DNA of 64,000 bases, from the NCBI GenBank assembly GCA_902536065.1, contig CACAVZ010000002.1:1-64000 (forward strand), written 5' to 3'. Positions 6,683 to 17,443 of this stretch are shown here, piece after piece. Every line of letters begins with the position of its first letter. Position 1 is the stretch's first letter. Position numbers and translations under genes: made by a program. The notes under the pieces are model-generated. The model did no database searches. It was not told where the DNA came from and saw only the letters and a list, made by a program, of their open reading frames with translations. Source of the DNA: an uncultured Synechococcaceae cyanobacterium (GTDB lineage: Bacteria > Cyanobacteriota > Cyanobacteriia > PCC-6307 > Cyanobiaceae).

Positions 6683-6814
6683 ATGCCAAAAAGATTTCCA
6701 GAGTGGGTAAACACCGAAGTCGTAGTTAAAGCTATCAAAATGAGGGAAGAAGGAATGCTTTCTAAACAACTTAATCTCTGGATAGAAAATCTATTGGAGA
6801 TTCAAAAAAAATAA
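6683..6814 (+). CDS. Small protein, function unknown
   Basis: A 43-codon ORF encodes MPKRFPEWVNTEVVVKA followed by an amphipathic stretch (KMREEGMLSKQLNLWIENLL). The product is soluble and slightly basic at the N-terminus. It ends 10 bases before the stop of the convergent larB-like gene. I know no family for it. Support comes only from an intact reading frame filling the gap and protein-like composition. Confidence 0.5.
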   Translation: MPKRFPEWVNTEVVVKAIKMREEGMLSKQLNLWIENLLEIQKK

Positions 6815-6824
6815 TTTTTTATAC

Positions 6825-7481
6825 TCAGGTAATCATCTTCAATATTCTTAATGCTGCCATTGCTGCTCCATAACCATTATCTATATTCATAACTGTTATC
6901 CCAGGAGAACAGCTTGCCAACATGCTTTTTAGGGCTGTTTCACCATTCTTACTGACTCCGTATCCCACTGAAACAGGAACTGCAATAATAGGTTGAGGTA
7001 ATAATCCCCCAATAACGGTTGCTAAAGCACCTTCCATGCCTGCACATACGATTAAAACATCAAATTTTTTTATTTCTTCAATCTGACTAAACAAACGATG
7101 AATTCCTGCTACTCCGACATCTATAAATGATTGGCAATTTACTCCATTTGTCTCTAAAGCCAATTTTGCTTCTAAAGTTACTTTTAAATCACTTGAACCT
7201 CCAGAAATTATTGCTACTTTTTTCTCCAAAAAATTTTTTTCAACATTATCTCCAATAATCAAGCAATTAGCCTCCTCATAAAATTTTGCATCTTGATATG
7301 AATTTAATAAATACTCGGCTTTATCTTTTTGAATACGGGTAATAAAAACTATTTCGTTTTTCTCTAAGACTTTCTTACATAATCTATTTAATTGATCTAT
7401 ATTTTTATCTTCTCCCCAAATTGCCTCGAATAGTCCAAGTCTTTCTCTCCTTTGAAAATCAAATCTTATATCGATATTCAT
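6825..7481 (-). CDS. larB: LarB-like protein (AIR carboxylase fold; nickel-pincer cofactor pathway)
   Basis: This 218-residue protein has the PurE-related core: ISGGSSDLKV, CAGMEGALATVIGGL, PVSVGYGVSKNGETAL and NIDNGYGAAMAALRIL. This matches LarB rather than PurE, because it has the N-terminal extension and the GMEGAL pattern. LarB carboxylates nicotinate adenine dinucleotide in the first step of nickel-pincer nucleotide synthesis. Its ATG overlaps the stop of the upstream 146-residue gene by 4 bases, so the two are coupled. No larC, larE or larA is in the window. The role in this organism is inferred from the family. Confidence 0.85.
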   Translation of the reverse strand: MNIDIRFDFQRRERLGLFEAIWGEDKNIDQLNRLCKKVLEKNEIVFITRIQKDKAEYLLNSYQDAKFYEEANCLIIGDNVEKNFLEKKVAIISGGSSDLKVTLEAKLALETNGVNCQSFIDVGVAGIHRLFSQIEEIKKFDVLIVCAGMEGALATVIGGLLPQPIIAVPVSVGYGVSKNGETALKSMLASCSPGITVMNIDNGYGAAMAALRILKMIT

Positions 7482-7918
7482 CCTTGAACGTATAATTCTC
7501 CCTCGTGAATTAACTGAAAAGGATTTTCATTTATATTCAATGCTTTTCTAACATTATTTTCAAAATTTGTTTGTACCTTATTTACTTCTTCAGATGGTAT
7601 TTTTTTCCATAATTGCTTGTTTTCCCAACTAACCAATATCAAAGCCTCTTCATTATCCTTATCCCAAAAAATTTGTCTCCCCAAGAACCCATCTTGTTTA
7701 ATTAACCATGGTTCCCAAACATTCTTCTCGGCCTCTAACCATTGTTCTTTAAGTTCAGCAGGTATTTGAAGCCTCAGTTCCTCAATCACCTGACCTTTTT
7801 GATAATTATGCATAGGTAGTGCGTATAAATCATGAAGATTACTTTGGGATACTAATACTGAAAACGTAATTAGTACGAAAAATATTTTTTTAATCAAATT
7901 TCGTAATATATACTTCAT
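7478..7918 (-). CDS. Secreted or membrane-anchored cyanobacterial protein (TIGR03792-like)
   Basis: The 146-residue product starts with a basic region and a hydrophobic stretch (residues about 9-25), consistent with a signal peptide or anchor. A soluble domain follows with WLEAEKNVWEPWLIKQDGF and GRQIFWDKDNEEALILVSW. That pattern resembles a small cyanobacterial family of unknown function that I recall as TIGR03792. The fold is probably a dimeric alpha/beta barrel. It lies 1 base after ispF on the same strand and overlaps larB by 4 bases, making an ispF - this gene - larB unit. Confidence 0.7.
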   Translation of the reverse strand: MKYILRNLIKKIFFVLITFSVLVSQSNLHDLYALPMHNYQKGQVIEELRLQIPAELKEQWLEAEKNVWEPWLIKQDGFLGRQIFWDKDNEEALILVSWENKQLWKKIPSEEVNKVQTNFENNVRKALNINENPFQLIHEGELYVQG

Positions 7919-7919
7919 T

Positions 7920-8423
7920 TCAATCAGTTTTCATTAGGAGGACTACAGAATGGCAACTTATTCCTTCTTCTCGTCCTTCAGGACCTAAGGTTTCATTAGT
8001 TGTTGCTTTTACGCTAACTGAATTTTTTTCCAAATTAGTGGCTTTAGATATATTCTCCTTCATAAATTCTATATAAGGCAAGAGTTTAGGTCTTTCAGCA
8101 ATAATCACATTATCAATATTTATTATCGCCCAACCTTTTTCTTTAATTAATTTAACCACCTTAGATAATAAGAGGAGGCTATTAGCATTTCGCCACTCTT
8201 GATCTGAAGGCGGAAAATATTTTCCTATATCACCTAATGAGAGTGCACCTAAAATTGCATCCATTATTGAATGCGCTAATACATCCGCATCACTATGACC
8301 ATCAAGACCTAGCCGATTTGGATGAGTCAATTTAACACCTCCAATAATTAGGTCCCTCCCTTCAGTAAGTCTATGGATATCATAACCATTACCTATTCGA
8401 AAACTTGGCATGAATTTTTTCAT
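7920..8423 (-). CDS. ispF: 2-C-methyl-D-erythritol 2,4-cyclodiphosphate synthase
   Basis: This enzyme closes the cyclodiphosphate ring in the MEP isoprenoid pathway. [11 protein letters not shown] at residues 9-19 supplies Asp15 and His17 of the zinc site. [11 protein letters not shown] at 41-51 supplies the third ligand, His51. [17 protein letters not shown] closes the protein. Length is 167 residues. A second in-frame ATG five codons in ([10 protein letters not shown]) may be the true start. It is the last conserved gene before the AT-rich accessory block that begins at 8585. Confidence 0.97.
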
Positions 8424-8584
8424 AACAGAGGTTTACAAATATAAATTTATACATTTATTTTAGATTAGCATAACAAATTTATATCTTAAATTTATTCTAA
8501 AATAGAAAACAAAAAACATTATTCTGGAAAAAAAATTTTTCAAAAATTTCAGGTTATCATATTTATAAATATGTAAATAAATAT

Positions 8585-10195
8585 ATGAAAAATAAAGTTT
8601 ACATAATAATAAATCCTGATTATTACGTTAGCCAATGGCAATATAAATGTATAAATAAATTAAAAAACTATGATTTAGTTTTTCTATTAGCAAAAGAAAT
8701 AAAAAGCAAAAAATATAGGCCAAATAAAAGCAAATATATCAAACATCTTTTTTATTACCTTATCAATTTAATTTCAATAAAACAGAAAAAAATCAAAATA
8801 GATCCTTCCAGATTCGAAAAAGCATCTATAAAAGAAATTAACTTTATAAGAAAAAATAATTCATGGGAAGAACTAACAGTTAAGTCAATAGATCAAATTA
8901 TAAATGGATCGCCCCTATTCATTTATAAATGCGGAATGGGTCTATTATATATAAATAATAAATTAAAAAATATACCAATTATTTCTCATCATCATGGAGA
9001 TCCCAACAAATTTAGAGGGCGTCCTGCTGGTTTTTATGAAATGCTTAAAGGTGAGAAGAAGATGGGACAAATTGTTCAGTTATTGACCAATGATTTAGAT
9101 GCTGGAAAAATTCTATTTTTTGCAGAGACAAAAATTTATCCTTGGTCTTATAAAAAAACATTGAGAGAATGTTTTTACATATCTCCAATAATTTTTGAAA
9201 AGGCATTAATTAATCTAGAAAAAGGAATTTTTATAGATAAAAAATGTGATGGCATAAACTATAAATTACCGTCTAACCTTTTAAGTATAAATTTTATCTT
9301 TTTAGAGATATTAGAATTAATCAATAAACTTTTTTATGGCTTATTTTACGAAAAGTTCTGGCAAGTTGGTTTTTTTGAAAATTTTTCTTTAGCATTAATA
9401 AATGAATCCCAAGATTTAATTAAATTTATTTATTCATTATCAAATAATTTTAAATCACTAAAAATTTGCAATGGATATAGTTTTTTTGCAGATCCATTCA
9501 TATTAGATTCAAATATTATTGTTGAAGGATTAAATAAGATTTCTGGAAAAGGAGATTTACTTTTAATAGATATAAAGAAAAACAAAGTAATCCAAAAATT
9601 AAATTTTAAGAATAAGCATCTTTCATACCCGTATACAAAATCATTTTCTGATATTTTATACGTGTATCCAGATTCAGGCTCTCTTAATAAACCTATTTAC
9701 TTTAGAGGTAAAAAAAATTCTTCTTTAGAAATACTTTCTTTTAAGAATTTCATACAAGGATTAATTGATCCGTCAGTAATTGAGAATGATGGTTTATTTT
9801 ATTTATTTGCTAATTATACAAATGAAAACTATGTACTTCGCTTATGGGTTTCTACAAATCCTAATTTTGATGATGCATATGAGCACCCTAACTCTCCAAT
9901 ATGCATAACTCCAGAAGGGGGAAGATCAGGAGGTAGGGTATTTAAATTTAAAAATAAATTTTATAGATTTGGACAAGATTGTACTAATGAATATGGAAAT
10001 GGTTTAATTCTTTTTGAAATTAATCAACTTACTGATAGCAATTTTTCAGAATGCATAATATCATCTATCAAATTTAAAAATAATTTCAAAGGTCCTCATA
10101 ATATGGATTTCTCAAATAATTTATTAACCTGGGATTTCTATGAAGAGAAATTCAATATTTTTGCAGGATTAAGGAGGATATTAAATAAAATTTAG
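8585..10195 (+). CDS. Formyltransferase-like domain fused to a GINT1-type beta-propeller
   Basis: The 536-residue protein has two parts. Residues about 110-215 look like the formyltransferase core: SHHHGDPNKFRGRPAGF (134-150) stands where other formyltransferases have N-x-H...RG, and NDLDAGKIL (169-177) supplies the conserved Asp at 172. The usual catalytic Asn is replaced by Ser134, while His136 and Asp172 are kept. From about residue 298 a second domain starts FFADPFILD and continues with repeated blade-like segments such as SVIENDGLFYLFANY and GPHNMDF. This resembles the five-bladed propeller of glucosamine inositolphosphorylceramide transferase proteins. A role in acylating or building an amino-sugar glycan is inferred. 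It converges on the flippase gene and is very AT-rich. Confidence 0.7.
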   Translation: MKNKVYIIINPDYYVSQWQYKCINKLKNYDLVFLLAKEIKSKKYRPNKSKYIKHLFYYLINLISIKQKKIKIDPSRFEKASIKEINFIRKNNSWEELTVKSIDQIINGSPLFIYKCGMGLLYINNKLKNIPIISHHHGDPNKFRGRPAGFYEMLKGEKKMGQIVQLLTNDLDAGKILFFAETKIYPWSYKKTLRECFYISPIIFEKALINLEKGIFIDKKCDGINYKLPSNLLSINFIFLEILELINKLFYGLFYEKFWQVGFFENFSLALINESQDLIKFIYSLSNNFKSLKICNGYSFFADPFILDSNIIVEGLNKISGKGDLLLIDIKKNKVIQKLNFKNKHLSYPYTKSFSDILYVYPDSGSLNKPIYFRGKKNSSLEILSFKNFIQGLIDPSVIENDGLFYLFANYTNENYVLRLWVSTNPNFDDAYEHPNSPICITPEGGRSGGRVFKFKNKFYRFGQDCTNEYGNGLILFEINQLTDSNFSECIISSIKFKNNFKGPHNMDFSNNLLTWDFYEEKFNIFAGLRRILNKI

Positions 10196-10214
10196 AAAAT
10201 TTCTTCAAAAAAAT

Positions 10215-11522
10215 TTAAAATTTTAAGATTGAATTTAGGATGAATGAAGACTTTACATTTAATAATTTAAGAGATTTCTTCCAAAGTGCAAATCCTCTTA
10301 TAAAGCTAGCAATAAAAAATGCAATAGCAGCTCCGTTTATGCCAATTACTGGTATTAATAAAAAATTTAATATTATGCCAACAAACAATGAGATTCCACA
10401 CCACTTGCAAGCAACTTTTTCATTACCTGTCATATTCATAATTGATCCGATAGGTCCAAATATTGAATTAAAAAATGGAGAAAGAAGAATTAAAAAAAAA
10501 GTAATTTTTGGTATTAAGAAATCAGATCCAAAATATAAAATTACAAATTTTTTATAAAAAAGAAAAATAATAGTAGAAAAAAATATTGCGAAAATACTTA
10601 TAAATCTATTACTTCTAAGAGCGATATTTTGTATTTCATGAAAATTATCAGATATAAAACTTTTCGCGATTCTTGGCTCTACGATTTTATTACTTGCATG
10701 TAATGCCAAACCAGTTATTGAAGAAATTTGAAATGCTAACTTATAATTTCCAACAATTTCAGGTTCACTAAATATTCCTAAAACAATTAAAGGTAATATG
10801 TTGTTAAGTAAAGCAAAACTTTCAAATAGTATTAATGGAAATGATTCTCTAATGTCTTTAAAAATAATATTTTTTATATTTTTTATATTTACTCTAGCCC
10901 ACGAAACCAAACCATTTGTTGAAGATAAAGTATAAAGCAAAGCCAAAACAGATGAGGCACTATATAAAATAATTGAAGTTGAATGGCTATTGAGTTTATA
11001 AATCCATTCAAATGAAAAAATAAATAAAATAAAAATTATATTAGGTATCATATTACCTAAAACCTGACCCTTAATTTCTTTCCCGGAGCTTCTAATAATT
11101 GAAGTAAGTGAGTTATTAATAGATAATGCAGGAACAATTGAGATCATTCCAAATAAAACTAAGTGATATTTATCATTTAATAAATTTGGAAATAGAAAAT
11201 TTAAAAAAAATATAAATAAACTTAAAACAAGCAAATAAGTCGTAACTAAATATAAATTTACATTGATCAAATTATTAAATTCATAACTTTTATTAGTCTT
11301 TATATAGGAAGATTTTCTTAAAATAAAATAAGGATATCCTACTAAAAAAGGTAAGCCTAAAAATTTTAATAGAGAAACTATAAATATATACTTACCAAAA
11401 TAAATTGCTCCTAATAGCCTAGCCAAAGCAAATACCAAATAAAATTCAAAAAATTTAATTAAAATATTTACAAAGAAACTTAATAAAATATTTTTTCTTA
11501 AGTTTATATTTTGACTTAACAT
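10215..11522 (-). CDS. Polysaccharide flippase of the MOP/Wzx superfamily
   Basis: This 435-residue integral membrane protein has about 12 hydrophobic segments spread over its length. The N-terminus (NILLSFFVNILIKFFEFYLV, then ARLLGAIYFGKYIFI) is typical of Wzx/RfbX flippases, which move lipid-linked oligosaccharides across the inner membrane. GPIGSIMNMTGNEKVA and INGAAIAFFIASF near the C-terminus are also characteristic of the superfamily. It lies 15 bases downstream of a glycosyltransferase on the same strand, forming a two-gene leftward unit. Substrate unknown. Confidence 0.85.
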   Translation of the reverse strand: MLSQNINLRKNILLSFFVNILIKFFEFYLVFALARLLGAIYFGKYIFIVSLLKFLGLPFLVGYPYFILRKSSYIKTNKSYEFNNLINVNLYLVTTYLLVLSLFIFFLNFLFPNLLNDKYHLVLFGMISIVPALSINNSLTSIIRSSGKEIKGQVLGNMIPNIIFILFIFSFEWIYKLNSHSTSIILYSASSVLALLYTLSSTNGLVSWARVNIKNIKNIIFKDIRESFPLILFESFALLNNILPLIVLGIFSEPEIVGNYKLAFQISSITGLALHASNKIVEPRIAKSFISDNFHEIQNIALRSNRFISIFAIFFSTIIFLFYKKFVILYFGSDFLIPKITFFLILLSPFFNSIFGPIGSIMNMTGNEKVACKWCGISLFVGIILNFLLIPVIGINGAAIAFFIASFIRGFALWKKSLKLLNVKSSFILNSILKF

Positions 11523-11537
11523 AAACTAACCTAGATT

Positions 11538-12509
11538 TTATTTATGCTTTAAAAATGCAAAAAGCTTTATCAAATCTAATATTATTGATATCACAAAGAA
11601 TTTACTAAATTCAATTAAATTAAATTTGAATATTTTTACGTTTTTTTTAATTGGCAGTATCAACATTCTATAAGTAAAGTAAAATAAAAAAATTATTGAG
11701 ATCATTATTTTAGATACATGTGGCAAATAAAGAAGACTGTTTTTATCCCAGTTAGCAACTTTATCATTCCAACTAAAAGCTAATAATAAAGAAAAAGTAA
11801 CTGAAAAAGAGTAATAAAGTATTCTTTGACTATAAAATTTTGGATTACCAGTATTTTTTGCATATTTGTACCATTTTTTACATAATTCAAAAAAATTCAT
11901 TCCTTTTAATCCAATATATTTACAAGGAATAACTTCTGGTTGCATCATTTCAGGATAAAAGGATTTTGATCTATTTATCCATTCTGCATCTTCCCCACTT
12001 CTAATTTTTGGAATAAAATAACCAATTTCTTGCAATAATTTTTTTTCGATTAATGTACCTTGAAAAGAACTTAATGGATTGTTACCATAAGTAGCTGAAA
12101 TAAAACATTTTTCAAATTCATTAAGGCCAATGAACTTGACCTTCCCTAATATCCCTCTTAAATTTTTATTTTCCAAAACTCTTATAGAGTTAGAAAGCCA
12201 ATTTGAATCAGGTAAAGGATGCGAATCCAAAAAGCATATATATTCACAAGTGCTTTTAGAAATACCAATATTTCTTGCTTCTCCAGGCATAATAATTTTT
12301 TCTAAAATTATAAATTCTATTTTAATTTTTAAGATTTGATTTAGTTCTAAAACTTCTTGCCTTTCTTCTTTGTTAACAACTCCAGAGATCACACATATAA
12401 TTTCTTTTAACTGATTAACATTTTGATCAAGATTTGAAAATAATATTTTCAATTCATTTAAGTCTTTAAATATCGTTCCAATTACTAAAGAAATATTTTT
12501 TTTATTCAT
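11538..12509 (-). CDS. Family 2 glycosyltransferase with C-terminal membrane segments
   Basis: The 323-residue product has a GT-A fold N-terminal half. Its acceptor-side signature is MPGEARNIGISKSTCEYI, followed by FLDSHPLP, where the DxD metal motif is D-S-H. A later SGEDAEWINRS segment probably supplies the catalytic base. Two or three hydrophobic helices (about residues 225-245, 262-282 and 300-318) anchor it to the membrane. It is divergent from the GT4 gene at 12650 and directly upstream of the flippase. The sugar it transfers cannot be told from sequence. Confidence 0.82.
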   Translation of the reverse strand: MNKKNISLVIGTIFKDLNELKILFSNLDQNVNQLKEIICVISGVVNKEERQEVLELNQILKIKIEFIILEKIIMPGEARNIGISKSTCEYICFLDSHPLPDSNWLSNSIRVLENKNLRGILGKVKFIGLNEFEKCFISATYGNNPLSSFQGTLIEKKLLQEIGYFIPKIRSGEDAEWINRSKSFYPEMMQPEVIPCKYIGLKGMNFFELCKKWYKYAKNTGNPKFYSQRILYYSFSVTFSLLLAFSWNDKVANWDKNSLLYLPHVSKIMISIIFLFYFTYRMLILPIKKNVKIFKFNLIEFSKFFVISIILDLIKLFAFLKHK

Positions 12510-12593
12510 ATGATCAATAAAAATGGTTTAAAAATTATTTATATTAATTAATTTCTAATTCTCCTAAAATTTTAAAGCAGCATTAGTCCATAT

Positions 12594-12599
12594 TATACT
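12594..12599 (+). promoter_or_regulatory. Candidate -10 element for the GT4 gene
   Basis: TATACT lies about 50 bases before the ATG at 12650, in the 140-base gap between divergently transcribed glycosyltransferases. No clear -35 hexamer is seen. The call rests on match to the TATAAT consensus only. Confidence 0.35.
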
Positions 12600-12649
12600 A
12601 AAGTAGCTAATGATAAAATTTAAATTTATTTGAAAAGAAATAATTATTT

Positions 12650-13819
12650 ATGAGGGTCTTATATTTTTCTCCAGATGGGATATTAGATGACTTAGGACAA
12701 AGCCAAATTTTACCTTATGTTTATGGTCTAAATGAGAGAGGATATAAATTTATTATTTTTAGTTTCGAAAGATTTGATAGGAAGAAAGAAGAAATATTAT
12801 CACAATCTAGGATCTTAGAATCAAAAGATATTATTTGGTATCATCTGCCATTTTATCCTAAAAAATATAATAGATTTCTTAGATTTATATTTGGAGCAAT
12901 TAAGTTAAATTTAATTTTTAGAAAACATAAGATAAATTTAATTCATATAAGATCTATAAATGCTGGTGCTATATTTCTTTTATCAGGATTAAAATGTCGA
13001 ATCTTATATGATATTAGGGCTTTTGCTGGACAGTTGGGTGATTATGGTTTACTAAAAAATTCCTTTTTATTAAAATCTTTTGTTTTTTTTGAAGAAATAC
13101 TAATAAAAAAATCTCAAGGAATTGTAGTACTTGATCAATCAGGTTTAGATTATTTAAATAGCAATTACAAATTAAATATACCTATCAAAATTATCCCAAC
13201 CTCTACAAATATCAGAAGATTTAACATCCCCAAAGGTCACAAAACTAAAAACAAAAAACAAATAAAGTTTGTCATGATAGGGGGAGCTAAATTTCCATAT
13301 TTGCCAAAAAAAGCACTTCTTTTTGTAAAAATCTTATTAAGAAATAACATAGATTGTACATTAGACATCATAAATCAAAGACATCATGAATTTATAAATG
13401 AAGTTATTAAGGAAGTTAAATTCCCAACTGATAAAGTTAAAGTATTCGGAATAAAATCGCACGAAAAATATAATTTGCTTCCTATATATGACTGCGGTCT
13501 TGTCTTTATTCATACTGGAAGTTGGATTAGAATGTCATCGCCAACAAAAATTGGAGAATATCTTGCTTCAGGATTACATGTAGTTGGTCTTGAAGGTATC
13601 GAAGTACTTGAAAGATTAGCAAATAGTACTCAGTCAGTTGATAACTTGCCAGAAAATTTTGAAAATAAAAATTTTAATAAAGAGAAAATTTATGAAATTG
13701 TAAATAAAATCAAAGATATAGGGAGAAGGGAAAAATCAGTAAAATTAGCAAAAAAATTATATGATTTAAATTCAGCTTTAAATAAATATTTATTACTCTA
13801 CAAAAGTATCCTAAATTAA
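12650..13819 (+). CDS. Family 4 (GT-B) glycosyltransferase
   Basis: The 389-residue protein begins RVLYFSPDGILDDLGQSQIL, the usual opening of GT4 enzymes. The late nucleotide-sugar-binding motif is SPTKIGEYLASGLHVVGLEG, near residues 302-321. It is soluble, with no membrane segments, and probably acts on a lipid-linked glycan at the cytoplasmic face. It stands alone between the divergent GT2/flippase pair and the CofD-like operon (124-base gap). Donor and acceptor are unknown. Confidence 0.88.
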   Translation: MRVLYFSPDGILDDLGQSQILPYVYGLNERGYKFIIFSFERFDRKKEEILSQSRILESKDIIWYHLPFYPKKYNRFLRFIFGAIKLNLIFRKHKINLIHIRSINAGAIFLLSGLKCRILYDIRAFAGQLGDYGLLKNSFLLKSFVFFEEILIKKSQGIVVLDQSGLDYLNSNYKLNIPIKIIPTSTNIRRFNIPKGHKTKNKKQIKFVMIGGAKFPYLPKKALLFVKILLRNNIDCTLDIINQRHHEFINEVIKEVKFPTDKVKVFGIKSHEKYNLLPIYDCGLVFIHTGSWIRMSSPTKIGEYLASGLHVVGLEGIEVLERLANSTQSVDNLPENFENKNFNKEKIYEIVNKIKDIGRREKSVKLAKKLYDLNSALNKYLLLYKSILN

Positions 13820-13943
13820 AAGTACTTTTTATTAAACTTATTCAACTAAAAAATTTTTTTAAAGTATTATTCAAAAGATCTTTAAATATAGTTTATGTCT
13901 GCTAAATTAAATTTGATTAATTTTTAGAAAATTATAAAAATAA

Positions 13944-15164
13944 ATGTTAAATATCACAGTTATCAATGGTGGAAGAGGAGCATCAAACCTAATACCAAAG
14001 CTCCTGGAAAAATCTCACATAAATCTTACCTCAATTGTTAATGCATACGATGATGGCAAATCAACTGGCGAAATAAGAAAATTTTTCAGTATGCTTGGCC
14101 CTTCAGATATTAGAAAGGTGCAGCAATTAATGTTACCTTCTAATGATAAAAATTTTTCTAGTTATCAAAGACTTTTCAATCATAGATTTCCAGAAGGAAT
14201 TAATAGAAAAAAAGTCTTTGAAGAAATTATTAATTATTTAAATAATCAAAATGCGACTTTAGTTGGCGAAAAAATAGATTCTGAATTTGTAAATGGACAT
14301 TTAAAACATTTTCTAAAAATATTTCTAAAAACTTTAAATTCAATAGAAAAATTGAAAGGAATTGAATTTAATTTTTCTGATTGTTCAATTATGAATTGCA
14401 TTTATGCAGGAGCATTTCTTTCCTTTAATAGGAATATTGCTGAATCAACTTTATTTTTCGGCGAATTATTTAATTTAAGAGGAAACGTAATTGCTACAAG
14501 CACTGAAAATAAATATCTTGTAGCACTTAGAGAAAATGGCGAAATTCTTTATAGCGAAGCAGAAATTGTAGAGCTCAGATCAAATGTAAGAATTGAAAGA
14601 ATATTTTTATTAGATTCACCATTATCAAAAAAATCTTTTGAAAAATTCAATCCAGAAGAAAAAAGATATTATTTAGAGCAACATAATTGCCATGTGCCAA
14701 TATCTCAAACAGTTACTTACGCTCTTAAACAGGCTGATGTAATAATTTACTCTGCGGGAACTCAACATTCTTCTCTTTATCCAAGTTATATAAGTACTGG
14801 GTTATCAGAAACAATCGCAAATAATAAAAAAGCCACAAAAATATTTATTACTAATATTGGAGCAGATTATGAGACTCCTCAATATAAAGCATCAGACTAT
14901 TTATTAGGAGCATTTAAATATCTAAATCTAACTGATTCAAGAAATTATAGAATGGAAGAACTATTTGATTATGTATTTATAAATAAAGGAAAAAATTCAG
15001 AATCATCTTCTTACGTTAGGTATGATGAAGAAAGTTTTAAAGATATTAAAGTAAAAAAAATAATAAAAAATTTTGAATCGATTAATTCTCCTGGAAAACA
15101 TGATGGCTATTTATTAACTGAAGAAATTCTAAAATTGCATAGATTAAAGCATAGTAATTGGTGA
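13944..15164 (+). CDS. CofD/YvcK-like phosphotransferase in a glycan operon
   Basis: The 406-residue protein has the CofD superfamily layout. INGGRGASNLIPKLL at 7-21 stands for the GGTG loop. NAYDDGKSTGEIRKFF at 33-48 gives the DDGGSSG-like motif with Asp36-Asp37. GPSDIRK follows at 52-58. A distal QADVIIYSAGTQHSSLYPS stands for the usual GPGSLYTSI segment. CofD transfers a phosphorylated three-carbon unit from a nucleotide donor, and YvcK relatives bind UDP-sugars. It leads a rightward operon: the next gene starts 3 bases after its stop, and the set ends in a nucleotidyltransferase. Coenzyme F420 synthesis is unlikely here, because no other F420 gene is visible and the context is glycan assembly. 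The function is undetermined. Confidence 0.78.
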   Translation: MLNITVINGGRGASNLIPKLLEKSHINLTSIVNAYDDGKSTGEIRKFFSMLGPSDIRKVQQLMLPSNDKNFSSYQRLFNHRFPEGINRKKVFEEIINYLNNQNATLVGEKIDSEFVNGHLKHFLKIFLKTLNSIEKLKGIEFNFSDCSIMNCIYAGAFLSFNRNIAESTLFFGELFNLRGNVIATSTENKYLVALRENGEILYSEAEIVELRSNVRIERIFLLDSPLSKKSFEKFNPEEKRYYLEQHNCHVPISQTVTYALKQADVIIYSAGTQHSSLYPSYISTGLSETIANNKKATKIFITNIGADYETPQYKASDYLLGAFKYLNLTDSRNYRMEELFDYVFINKGKNSESSSYVRYDEESFKDIKVKKIIKNFESINSPGKHDGYLLTEEILKLHRLKHSNW

Positions 15165-15167
15165 AAA

Positions 15168-15800
15168 ATGAAAATTTCTGAGAAAATAAAAAATACAAAA
15201 TTTTTGATTTTTGATTTTGATGGAACGATTGCGAATACATCCCCAATTCATGAAAAAGCATTTAAAGAAGTATTCAAACCTTATAAACTTCTCTTTAAAT
15301 ATGAAGAAATTGCTGGTCAAAGTACTAGAAAAGCTTTTAATCATATCTTAAAAAAATATAATATAAATCTATCTTCAACAAAAGTAGATGCATTAATATC
15401 TAAGAAACAAGAGTTAGTTAGAGAAAATATATCTTCTAATTCAAAATTAAAACCGCTACCTTTTGTAAGAGAATTTATTCAAAAATATCATCAGGATTAT
15501 TTTATGGGAATAGCTTCATCAGGTTCAAGAAAAACTATTGATATTGCTCTAAGAAGATTAGAGTTATACGATTTTTTTAAGATCATCTTATGTGCAGAGG
15601 ATGTGATTGAATCTAAACCTTCTCCAGAAATATTTCTAAAAATTATTTCACTAGGCAATTTCACTAAAGAGGAATGTTTGATTTTTGAAGATTCTCAAAA
15701 CGGATTTAAGGCTTCTAAAGCAGCTAATATTCCTTTTATAGATGTTACAACTTACCCCTTTAAAAAAATCCTAGAGGAATTTAATAATTTCCATGAATAA
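15168..15800 (+). CDS. HAD-superfamily phosphatase (phosphoglucomutase-like subfamily)
   Basis: The 210-residue protein has the HAD motifs in order: LIFDFDGTIAN with nucleophile Asp16 and Asp18; GIASSGS with Ser117 or Ser118 as motif II; SKPSPEIF with Lys150; and FEDSQNGFKASKAANIP with Glu174-Asp175. A helical cap lies between motifs I and II, as in beta-phosphoglucomutase and phosphoglycolate phosphatase relatives. It starts 3 bases after the CofD-like gene and overlaps the next GT2 gene by 8 bases. The likely substrate is a small sugar- or polyol-phosphate used by this operon. Confidence 0.88.
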   Translation: MKISEKIKNTKFLIFDFDGTIANTSPIHEKAFKEVFKPYKLLFKYEEIAGQSTRKAFNHILKKYNINLSSTKVDALISKKQELVRENISSNSKLKPLPFVREFIQKYHQDYFMGIASSGSRKTIDIALRRLELYDFFKIILCAEDVIESKPSPEIFLKIISLGNFTKEECLIFEDSQNGFKASKAANIPFIDVTTYPFKKILEEFNNFHE

Positions 15801-16710
15801 TATCAAAACAGTTGCAATTATAGTTACTTATAACAGATCCGAGTTGCTAAAAAGATGTTTAATAAACCTAAAAAAGCAGACTAAAAAAGTTGATAAAATC
15901 TTAGTAATTAACAACGGCTCAACCGATGATACTCATGAAGTCCTAAAAGATTTTGAAATAGATTCAATTAAACAAGCAAACTTAGGATCCGCAGGGGGAT
16001 GGAATACAGGATTGAAATATGCATTAGATTATGGTTTCGACGCAGCATGGTTGATGGATGATGATGGATATCCTGATAAAAACGCTTATCAAATTCTTAA
16101 AAATTCTTTTACTAAAAATATGTCTTGTATTTCATCAGTAGTTGTTAATGAATATGATAAATCTCAATTTGTATTCCCTTATCCACTTTTTAATAAAAAT
16201 GGAATGCCAAAGATAGGATTCAATATGACGTCTATATCATTAGTAAGTAACCTGCAAAAATTTTGTAAAAATGATCTATATCCTTGGACCCAATTATTTA
16301 ATGGAGCTCTAATCTCTATTGAGACTGTAAAAAAAATAGGCAATGTAAATCAAAATTACTTTATTTATGGTGATGAAGTTGATTATTTGTTCCGTTTAAG
16401 AAAAGAAGGAAAAATATTCTCTCATGCTAAAGCTATTCATTATCACCCCAAAATATACAATAGACCTTACAATAATGTTCAAATTTTTTATTTTCTTAGG
16501 AATAGTATTGTTAACTACAAAAAATATTATGACAAAAAATTACTTAGAAGTACTTTAGGAATTATTTATTTACTATTTAAAATTTATCAGAAAAATAAAA
16601 GCCTTAGAAAAATTTTTTCACTTTTAATCGGGAAAGATAGAGAAATTTTTTATAGTAGTATTTCACAGGGGCTTAGAAATAAATTAGGAATAAATCATGA
16701 AATCAAATAA
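15793..16710 (+). CDS. Family 2 glycosyltransferase, rhamnosyl/galactofuranosyl-transferase type
   Basis: The 305-residue GT-A enzyme has AIIVTYNRSELLKRCL at residues 8-23, VINNGSTDDT at 38-47, ANLGSAGGWNTG at 62-73 and WLMDDDGYPD with Asp89-91 as the metal motif. The NLGSAGG and WLMDDDG pair is typical of the group containing rhamnosyl- and galactofuranosyltransferases. A YGDEVDYLFRLRKEG segment follows, probably carrying the catalytic Asp/Glu. Its start overlaps the HAD gene by 8 bases and its end overlaps the nucleotidyltransferase by 14 bases. No UDP-galactopyranose mutase or dTDP-rhamnose gene is in the window. Confidence 0.85.
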   Translation: MNNIKTVAIIVTYNRSELLKRCLINLKKQTKKVDKILVINNGSTDDTHEVLKDFEIDSIKQANLGSAGGWNTGLKYALDYGFDAAWLMDDDGYPDKNAYQILKNSFTKNMSCISSVVVNEYDKSQFVFPYPLFNKNGMPKIGFNMTSISLVSNLQKFCKNDLYPWTQLFNGALISIETVKKIGNVNQNYFIYGDEVDYLFRLRKEGKIFSHAKAIHYHPKIYNRPYNNVQIFYFLRNSIVNYKKYYDKKLLRSTLGIIYLLFKIYQKNKSLRKIFSLLIGKDREIFYSSISQGLRNKLGINHEIK

Positions 16711-17443
16711 TAAAATTGGAGTTTTAATAGCAGCGGCTGGGAAAGGAACAAGAGCAAAGCTTAATTATCCAAAAACACTTTTTAAAATAAATGGCAAAGA
16801 AATATTACTAAGTATTCTTGATATAACTATTGATTATGATCAAAAACCAACGATAATAGTGAGTCCAAAAGGTGAAAATGATATAAATAATTTTCTATCA
16901 GAATATTCAAAAACTTGTAATTTAGTTATTCAAAAGGTAGCAAAAGGTATGGGTGACGCAGTACTACAATTTAAAAGGTCACCCTCTTTTGAACTTTCCG
17001 AAAATATTTTACTAATTTGGGGAGATATTCCTTTTATTAAAAAAGTTACTGTAAAAAAAATGGTTGAAAGACATTTTGAAAATGATAATACTTTTACCTT
17101 CGTATCTGCTAAAACAGATAAAGCTTATACAAGAGTAAATAGAGATAAGAATGGAAACATAATTGAAATACTAGAAACTAGAGAAGAAAACCTTCCAATT
17201 GAAAATGGTGAAAGAGATGTGGGTTTATTTATATTTAAGAAAAAGGAGATTTTTGATTTATTAAAGTTAAATCTATCAAAAAAATATAGTTCCAAAACAA
17301 AAGAACATGGATTTTTGTACTTGGTATCTCATCTTGTAAAAAATGGTTTTAAAGTTGAAGGTCTCAAAATAGCAAAAGGTGAAGAATTAATTTCTCTTAA
17401 TAAGATTTCTGATTTAGAAATTCTCAACAAAAAAGATTTATAA
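16697..17443 (+). CDS. Nucleotidyltransferase (sugar-1-phosphate NTP transferase type)
   Basis: The 248-residue protein opens VLIAAAGKGTRAKLNYPK (residues 9-26), the GxGTR...PK nucleotide-binding signature. It continues with LIWGDIPFI, the Asp that binds metal. It resembles the catalytic domain of GlmU or other sugar-phosphate pyrophosphorylases and lacks the left-handed helix acetyltransferase domain. It overlaps the GT2 gene by 14 bases and closes the four-gene operon. The most economical role is making the nucleotide-activated donor used by the CofD-like or GT2 enzyme. The exact substrate is unknown. Confidence 0.85.
   Translation: MKSNNKIGVLIAAAGKGTRAKLNYPKTLFKINGKEILLSILDITIDYDQKPTIIVSPKGENDINNFLSEYSKTCNLVIQKVAKGMGDAVLQFKRSPSFELSENILLIWGDIPFIKKVTVKKMVERHFENDNTFTFVSAKTDKAYTRVNRDKNGNIIEILETREENLPIENGERDVGLFIFKKKEIFDLLKLNLSKKYSSKTKEHGFLYLVSHLVKNGFKVEGLKIAKGEELISLNKISDLEILNKKDL

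Follow-up and report, generated by a model that had tools for sequence, protein, structure and literature searches.

Why does a CofD-family protein lie inside a surface-glycan gene cluster, and what could it make there? The question is raised by the DNA of an uncultured Synechococcaceae cyanobacterium (GenBank assembly GCA_902536065.1, contig CACAVZ010000002.1), of which positions 1 to 64,000 of the forward strand, hereafter the window, were analyzed. The initial annotation described four overlapping or near-touching genes encoding a CofD-like protein, a HAD phosphatase, a GT2 glycosyltransferase and a nucleotidyltransferase (NT). This operon is real: four plus-strand genes occupy 13944-17443, and adjacent genes overlap or sit three bases apart.

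13944..15164, + strand: CofD-like enzyme of a distinct clade, 406 residues (Pfam PF01933)
15168..15800, + strand: HAD hydrolase of the beta-phosphoglucomutase-like subfamily, 210 residues (Pfam PF13419 and NCBIfam)
15793..16710, + strand: GT2 glycosyltransferase, 305 residues (best NCBIfam model the galactofuranosyltransferase GlfT1, below its cut-off)
16697..17443, + strand: GlmU-type NT without the acetyltransferase half, 248 residues (Pfam/NCBIfam)

The explanation that we tentatively favor is that the CofD-like enzyme, the HAD enzyme and the NT form a conserved module predicted to build an activated sugar, probably of furanose type, for the GT2 to add to a surface glycan. The arrangement had been described as non-standard. 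A gene-neighborhood survey finds that the same partners recur, in a cassette form, a fusion form and a phage form.

The cassette was followed in the window and in 11 loci from named genomes, which span Prochlorococcus (L002-L004, 74-77% identical to the window CofD), Accumulibacter, Burkholderiales, SAR86 and a deltaproteobacterium. Together with the CofD-like gene, an NT is found in 12/12 loci, a GT2 in 11/12 and a HAD gene in 10/12. One locus, L012, contains neither HAD nor GT2 and includes a methyltransferase, and its genome encodes a single GlfT1-like GT2 elsewhere on the contig. When proteins were searched with the window CofD, 1274 relatives scored at E 1e-3, the best 120 of them 55-99% identical; some of the rows beyond the best 120, here and in the relative searches below, may come from other CofD families.

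In the second form the CofD part is fused to a glycosyltransferase. A search of the class of genome G152 (369 genomes, E 1e-40) gave four matches, G152 itself and three genomes encoding a protein of 648-700 residues with CofD at the N-terminus (32-33% identical). No Pfam family was found for the C-terminal part, which hhalign aligned as a DPM/GtrB-like GT2 (probability 94.9, E 4.5e-8, 169 columns) in a comparison against three GT2s from the same loci, recognized by eye. HAD and NT genes directly follow the fusion gene in the three resolved loci. In a fourth locus (L095), the NT (E 1.4e-45) and a HAD-like sequence lie beside the CofD frame, with overlapping frames. A protein search scored 2010 relatives of the fusion form, of which the best 120 all measure 645-716 residues; a scan of viral contigs with the fusion alignment gave no relative. 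In the fusion proteins of L052-L054 (648-700 residues), which belong to a large uncharacterized family, the GT2 aspartate motif is altered to E/D-S-S-G.

The third form is encoded by phages. Scans of IMG/VR returned 3 and 31 loci, the 3 being contigs that recur among the 31; together with the jumbo-phage record LR756500 (L047) the set holds 32 loci, one truncated, and the other 31 fall into 27 groups at 90% identity. The phage protein consists of CofD followed by a HAD-like part whose D-x-D-x-T and GD(E)..GND residues are invariant in 12/12 aligned sequences. This part matches PF08282 in L047 (E 1.7e-5), in L061 (E 1.7e-4) and in the metagenomic protein P0280 (24.3 bits, cut-off 20.9), while the HAD pieces of L059 and L060 gave no Pfam match at all and that of L087 no HAD model. 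Where it matches, the phage part falls in PF08282 and the bacterial enzyme in PF13419, which suggests that the activity was kept rather than one protein. An NT lies near the phage CofD in 26/27 groups, mostly as the next gene (the flank of L062 is the one without NT). In L087, CofD stands alone (338 residues) and the HAD-like part is fused instead to the NT (444 residues), a fusion that merged two BLAST clusters. As the HAD part is joined to CofD in most phages and to the NT in this one, it probably acts between them. A T4-type beta-glucosyltransferase or a TAGT occurs in the flanks of 23/27 groups (the former cluster was assigned by BLAST with two members checked against PF09198, and two TAGT members were checked), and thymidylate-synthase-like genes flank 9/27. 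The final acceptor in the phage loci is probably DNA. At E 1e-10, a protein search with the phage form scored 498 relatives. INPHARED yielded LR756500 and, at 22% identity, two records of Staphylococcus phages; searches with two phage proteins returned LR756500 only, and no cultured phage with the module is known from these searches. Since the partners recur across bacterial and phage loci (the neighborhood control left out L045), a chance neighborhood was rejected.

There are precedents for phage donor-sugar enzymes, shown or proposed, encoded close to DNA glycosylation genes: in the accessible text of the respective reports, TH1_063 of phage Thanatos was established as a UDP-xylose pyrophosphorylase (PMC12838424) and RB69 was proposed to make UDP-arabinose (PMC6024577). 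These systems, compared by description, resemble the present one in placing a phage nucleotidyltransferase near DNA glycosylation; they differ in that the accessible Thanatos text (PMC12838424) does not contain the word CofD. A metagenomic protein of 1006 residues, P0361, joins a processive GT2, CofD (both by Pfam) and a HAD-like part (by motif) in one chain, a natural fusion of synthase and module; a scan of viral contigs with it gave no relative.

Is the CofD-like protein an ordinary YvcK? The window protein carries the PF01933 domain and the CofD fold, and profile searches of PDB returned YvcK structures, the other rows being insignificant. It scores 97.8 bits against the YvcK model TIGR01826 (cut-off 196) and 103.9 bits against the GAK-system CofD model TIGR04357 (cut-off 340). 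In the tree, the nine cyanobacterial YvcK group together (support 100/100), as do the cassette proteins (100/99), so that the CofD-like protein falls outside YvcK, in line with the initial annotation. This tree, which contained no F420 CofD, sampled 7 listed relatives of the window CofD, 12 listed fusion-form relatives and nine of the 29 YvcK loci L014-L042; phage and fusion rows were trimmed to the first 390/420 residues, and L067, L071, L074, L091 and L092, near-copies or truncated, were left out. The clade has a signature of its own (N33, Y35, T41, G52, S54, K58, D146, T273, S276 and D308), of which K58 and D308 are present in 58/58 clade rows and in 0/9 YvcK rows. An ordinary YvcK was rejected on these three grounds: scores below the TIGR01826 cut-off, position in the tree and clade-specific residues. 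YvcK/GlmR (UPF0052; structures 2hzb, 2o2z and 2ppv) also differs in its neighbors. A role in F420 synthesis was rejected as well, since the NT has no match to the CofC family PF01983 at E 0.01, only to other NTP-transferase models, and no F420 CofD model appears among the NCBIfam matches of the window CofD. Identity to the F420 pair CofC/FbiD and CofD/FbiA is 12-16%, and the window NT is GlmU-like instead of CofC-like. An inactive mutant of Listeria GlmR3 has N198 altered together with two Asp, according to the accessible part of its report (PMC10128056); by alignment, this position maps onto S281 of the window CofD and is Ser/Thr in the clade. Matches on plasmids belong to other CofD families (20-27% identical). 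A lone CofD-family protein on the Acaryochloris plasmid pREC4 (L043, 7983-9080) groups with the phage form on a long branch; it adjoins an oppositely oriented 'nucleotide-binding protein' gene and has no NT match.

Each of the partners has conserved residues. In the HAD protein, D16, D18, S118, K150 and D175 are invariant in 10 aligned sequences (window plus nine relatives), and D89-D91 of the GT2 is invariant in 11 (window plus ten relatives). The NT has the fold, the active-site Lys and the metal-binding Asp and Asn of a GlmU-type uridylyltransferase; it is not a bifunctional GlmU, having 248 residues only and 98.6 bits against a cut-off of 366.85. The earlier proposal that the NT makes an activated donor thus agrees with its type and key residues, and the enzyme may well do so. 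When NTs of the cassette, fusion and phage forms are compared, 42/42 sequences agree at G15, R19, K26, W108, D110, Y144 and N235 and 41/42 at D174, four near-copies having been left out. Such conservation of CofD and NT residues, in polysaccharide loci and in probable phage-DNA loci with different final acceptors, points to a shared soluble product that would be handed to a locus-specific glycosyltransferase.

The nature of this product is suggested by the GT2. Mycobacterial GlfT1 uses UDP-galactofuranose, a donor made by the UDP-galactopyranose mutase Glf. If the module were the source of the donor, one would expect Glf to be missing where the cassette is present, and to be found in genomes that have a GlfT1-like GT2 but no cassette. 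Among 12 cassette genomes, the GlfT1-like GT2 is present in 12/12 and Glf in 0/12. In the genus, a GlfT1-like GT2 occurs at E 1e-20 in 6/265 genomes, namely the five CofD carriers and G639, where NT, GT2 and a piece of the HAD gene run into a contig end and no Glf match was found. In the class of G152 it occurs in 4/274 genomes, G152 with its cassette and G172, G418 and G421, in which Glf (E ~1e-72) lies beside the GT2 (one gene between them in G421). Four Glf-linked GT2 homologs are 25-29% identical to the window GT2. The resemblance to the Glf and GlfT1 system for galactofuranose is thus a GT2 of the same broad family; the difference is that 13/14 cassette genomes have no Glf match and carry CofD-HAD-NT in its place (G149-G151 duplicate G607, G604 and G567, as their identical match coordinates show, and were counted once).

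A second indication comes from the one remark on a CofD-like family in a glycan context that was found in the literature searched, in the accessible text of a Mycoplasma study (PMC11658790). The capsule of M. fermentans PG18 is described there as a homopolymer of beta-(1-6)-glucofuranose that bears no other substituents, and CofD-family pieces and a nucleotidyltransferase gene lie beside the synthase. The likeness to the window is by description, not by sequence: both loci have CofD-family sequence and a nucleotidyltransferase next to a polysaccharide glycosyltransferase, which in Mycoplasma is a synthase-type GT2, with CofD reported as split. Together with the GlfT1-like GT2, this polymer points to a furanose.

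A mechanism has to accommodate what was directly observed: the conserved linkage, the predicted fold, the residues that are kept, the fusions and the contrast in Glf. In the one that we propose, the CofD-like enzyme would phosphorylate the anomeric carbon of a sugar phosphate, locking the ring form; the HAD enzyme would strip the other phosphate; the GlmU-type NT would couple the sugar-1-phosphate to a nucleotide; and the GlfT1-like GT2 would use the activated product on a surface glycan, the module replacing Glf as donor source. We infer all these reactions, and the furanose ring, from sequence comparison, and the CofD step, reached by elimination, is the least certain. The same logic of C1 phosphorylation, removal of the other phosphate and activation is found in the GDP/ADP-heptose route, with its kinase, the HAD enzyme GmhB and a nucleotidyltransferase; that route uses a sugar kinase and the module has a CofD fold instead. 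A wider proposal, possible though doubtful, is that a CofD-fold phosphotransferase, a HAD enzyme and a GlmU-type NT constitute a second, Glf-independent route to nucleotide-activated furanoses, serving bacterial surface glycans and, with HAD fused to CofD, phage DNA. Should an activated furanose be what the module makes, this would answer how furanose glycans arise without Glf, account for the route to the glucofuranose capsule, and add a sugar-donor chemistry to the CofD fold that links bacterial glycans to phage DNA modification. The testable rule that would follow is that a GlfT1-like GT2 should have either Glf or the CofD-HAD-NT module adjacent; the CofD-like family is large and unstudied.

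Several points weigh against this explanation. Anomeric phosphorylation is not a known reaction of the CofD fold: CofD/FbiA transfers a phospho-unit taken from NDP-X, and GlmR reportedly a uridylyl group (accessible parts of PMC7253369, PMC5482804, PMC10128056 and PMC8764529 for FbiA, YvcK/GlmR and CofC/CofD). Neither L011 nor L012 has a HAD gene at the locus. With 111.5 bits, the GT2 stays below the cut-off of 330 of the GlfT1 model NF050113, so that the match is one of relation, not of membership. The Glf contrast, with Glf in 1/14 cassette genomes and in 3/3 non-cassette genomes with a GlfT1-like GT2, speaks for the module, but its Fisher p of 0.006 is only a guide, the genomes being related and many incomplete; with many incomplete drafts (G000 at 71%), the Glf absences are soft. 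The three non-cassette genomes are a small sample, and 'no cassette' means for them no CofD match at E 1e-40, membership in that scan going by handle numbers. The cassette genome G686 has two weaker Glf-family matches about 28 and 36 kb away (C4, 60685-61311, E 3.9e-25 with one internal stop, and 69053-69676, E 9.7e-22). In the phages, the GlmU glutamine, Q79 here, is present in 0/26 NTs against 16/16 bacterial ones and CofD D37 is Asn in 20/27, so that the phage substrate may differ; 4/27 groups have neither DNA glycosyltransferase in their flanks. The phage partners are mostly beta-glucosyltransferases of the T4 type, and the T4 enzyme uses UDP-glucose, a pyranose donor. Finally, the accessible Mycoplasma text (PMC11658790) calls the M. 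fermentans CofD pieces pseudogenes although the polymer is still made, and CofD may therefore be dispensable there.

The main competitor stays with the known chemistry of the fold and is kept for that reason. The NT would make NDP-X, and the CofD-like enzyme would transfer phospho-X (for example a sugar-1-phosphate) to a hydroxyl of a glycan or of glucosylated DNA; NMP would be released, as in the reaction of CofD with LPPG, and the HAD enzyme would make or trim X-phosphate. This was in essence the first idea, a phosphodiester formed on a glycan by the CofD-like protein, and we now regard it as unlikely. One conserved active site would have to serve both polysaccharide and DNA acceptors; a GlfT1-like GT2 without Glf would be left unexplained; and the accessible description of the M. 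fermentans polymer (PMC11658790) has it free of other substituents. The phage loci, the Glf contrast and this polymer thus demote phosphodiester decoration to a rival, weaker than a Glf-independent donor route.

The CofD-like protein could also be a regulator or helper that senses UDP-sugars, the role first ascribed to YvcK/GlmR, leaving HAD and NT alone to make the donor. This is quite improbable: K58, D308 and the rest of the clade signature set it apart from the YvcK rows, and the HAD and glycosyltransferase fusions, with the spread over phyla and phages, suit an enzyme better. It is more improbable still that the CofD-like protein acts on an acceptor-bound sugar with HAD as its partner, as a two-step transferase like gPRT and PRP, which add ribofuranose from PRPP. 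Such HAD-fused two-step furanose systems are known in glycan loci, and furanose systems with HAD phosphatases have precedents there (PMC11127046, PMC10299916); in the accessible parts of these reports they use PRPP and name no nucleotidyltransferase, and the NT is the most constant partner here. The donor-building module remains the explanation that we tentatively prefer.

The cassette probably includes a further gene, found in the window upstream of cofD:

12650..13819, + strand: GT4-type glycosyltransferase (Pfam)

In 10/11 relatives, the genes upstream of cofD include a GT4 of the same BLAST cluster (two genes intervene in L003), which makes it a likely fifth member. An AsnB-like amidotransferase also occurs among the cassette neighbors, as do an EpsG-like polymerase, a UDP-sugar dehydrogenase and a TviC-like epimerase (one member of each was checked); this company marks the loci as surface-polysaccharide clusters. 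The AsnB-like protein, of about 650 residues (one member checked with Pfam), recurs in 7/11 loci (L005-L008 and L010-L012). A methyltransferase gene lies near the module in the phage loci L064, L069, L071, L078, L085 and L088 (one member of the phage cluster checked) and in the bacterial loci L005 and L012; it perhaps modifies the same sugar as the module.

Left of the operon in the window, Pfam recognizes the GT4, a second GT2, a flippase-like protein and a GINT1_N/formyltransferase-like protein, with housekeeping genes farther left; trmD- and era-like genes, recognized by eye, lie on the right. The four genes have a G+C content of 0.268 and positions 6800-17443 one of 0.260, against 0.328 on the right-hand side, a drop consistent with an island. 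The window-type CofD was found at E 1e-40 in only 5/266 genomes of the genus, and is thus an accessory gene. In the same island, positions 8585-10195 encode a protein of 536 residues that combines formyltransferase-like and GINT1_N parts.

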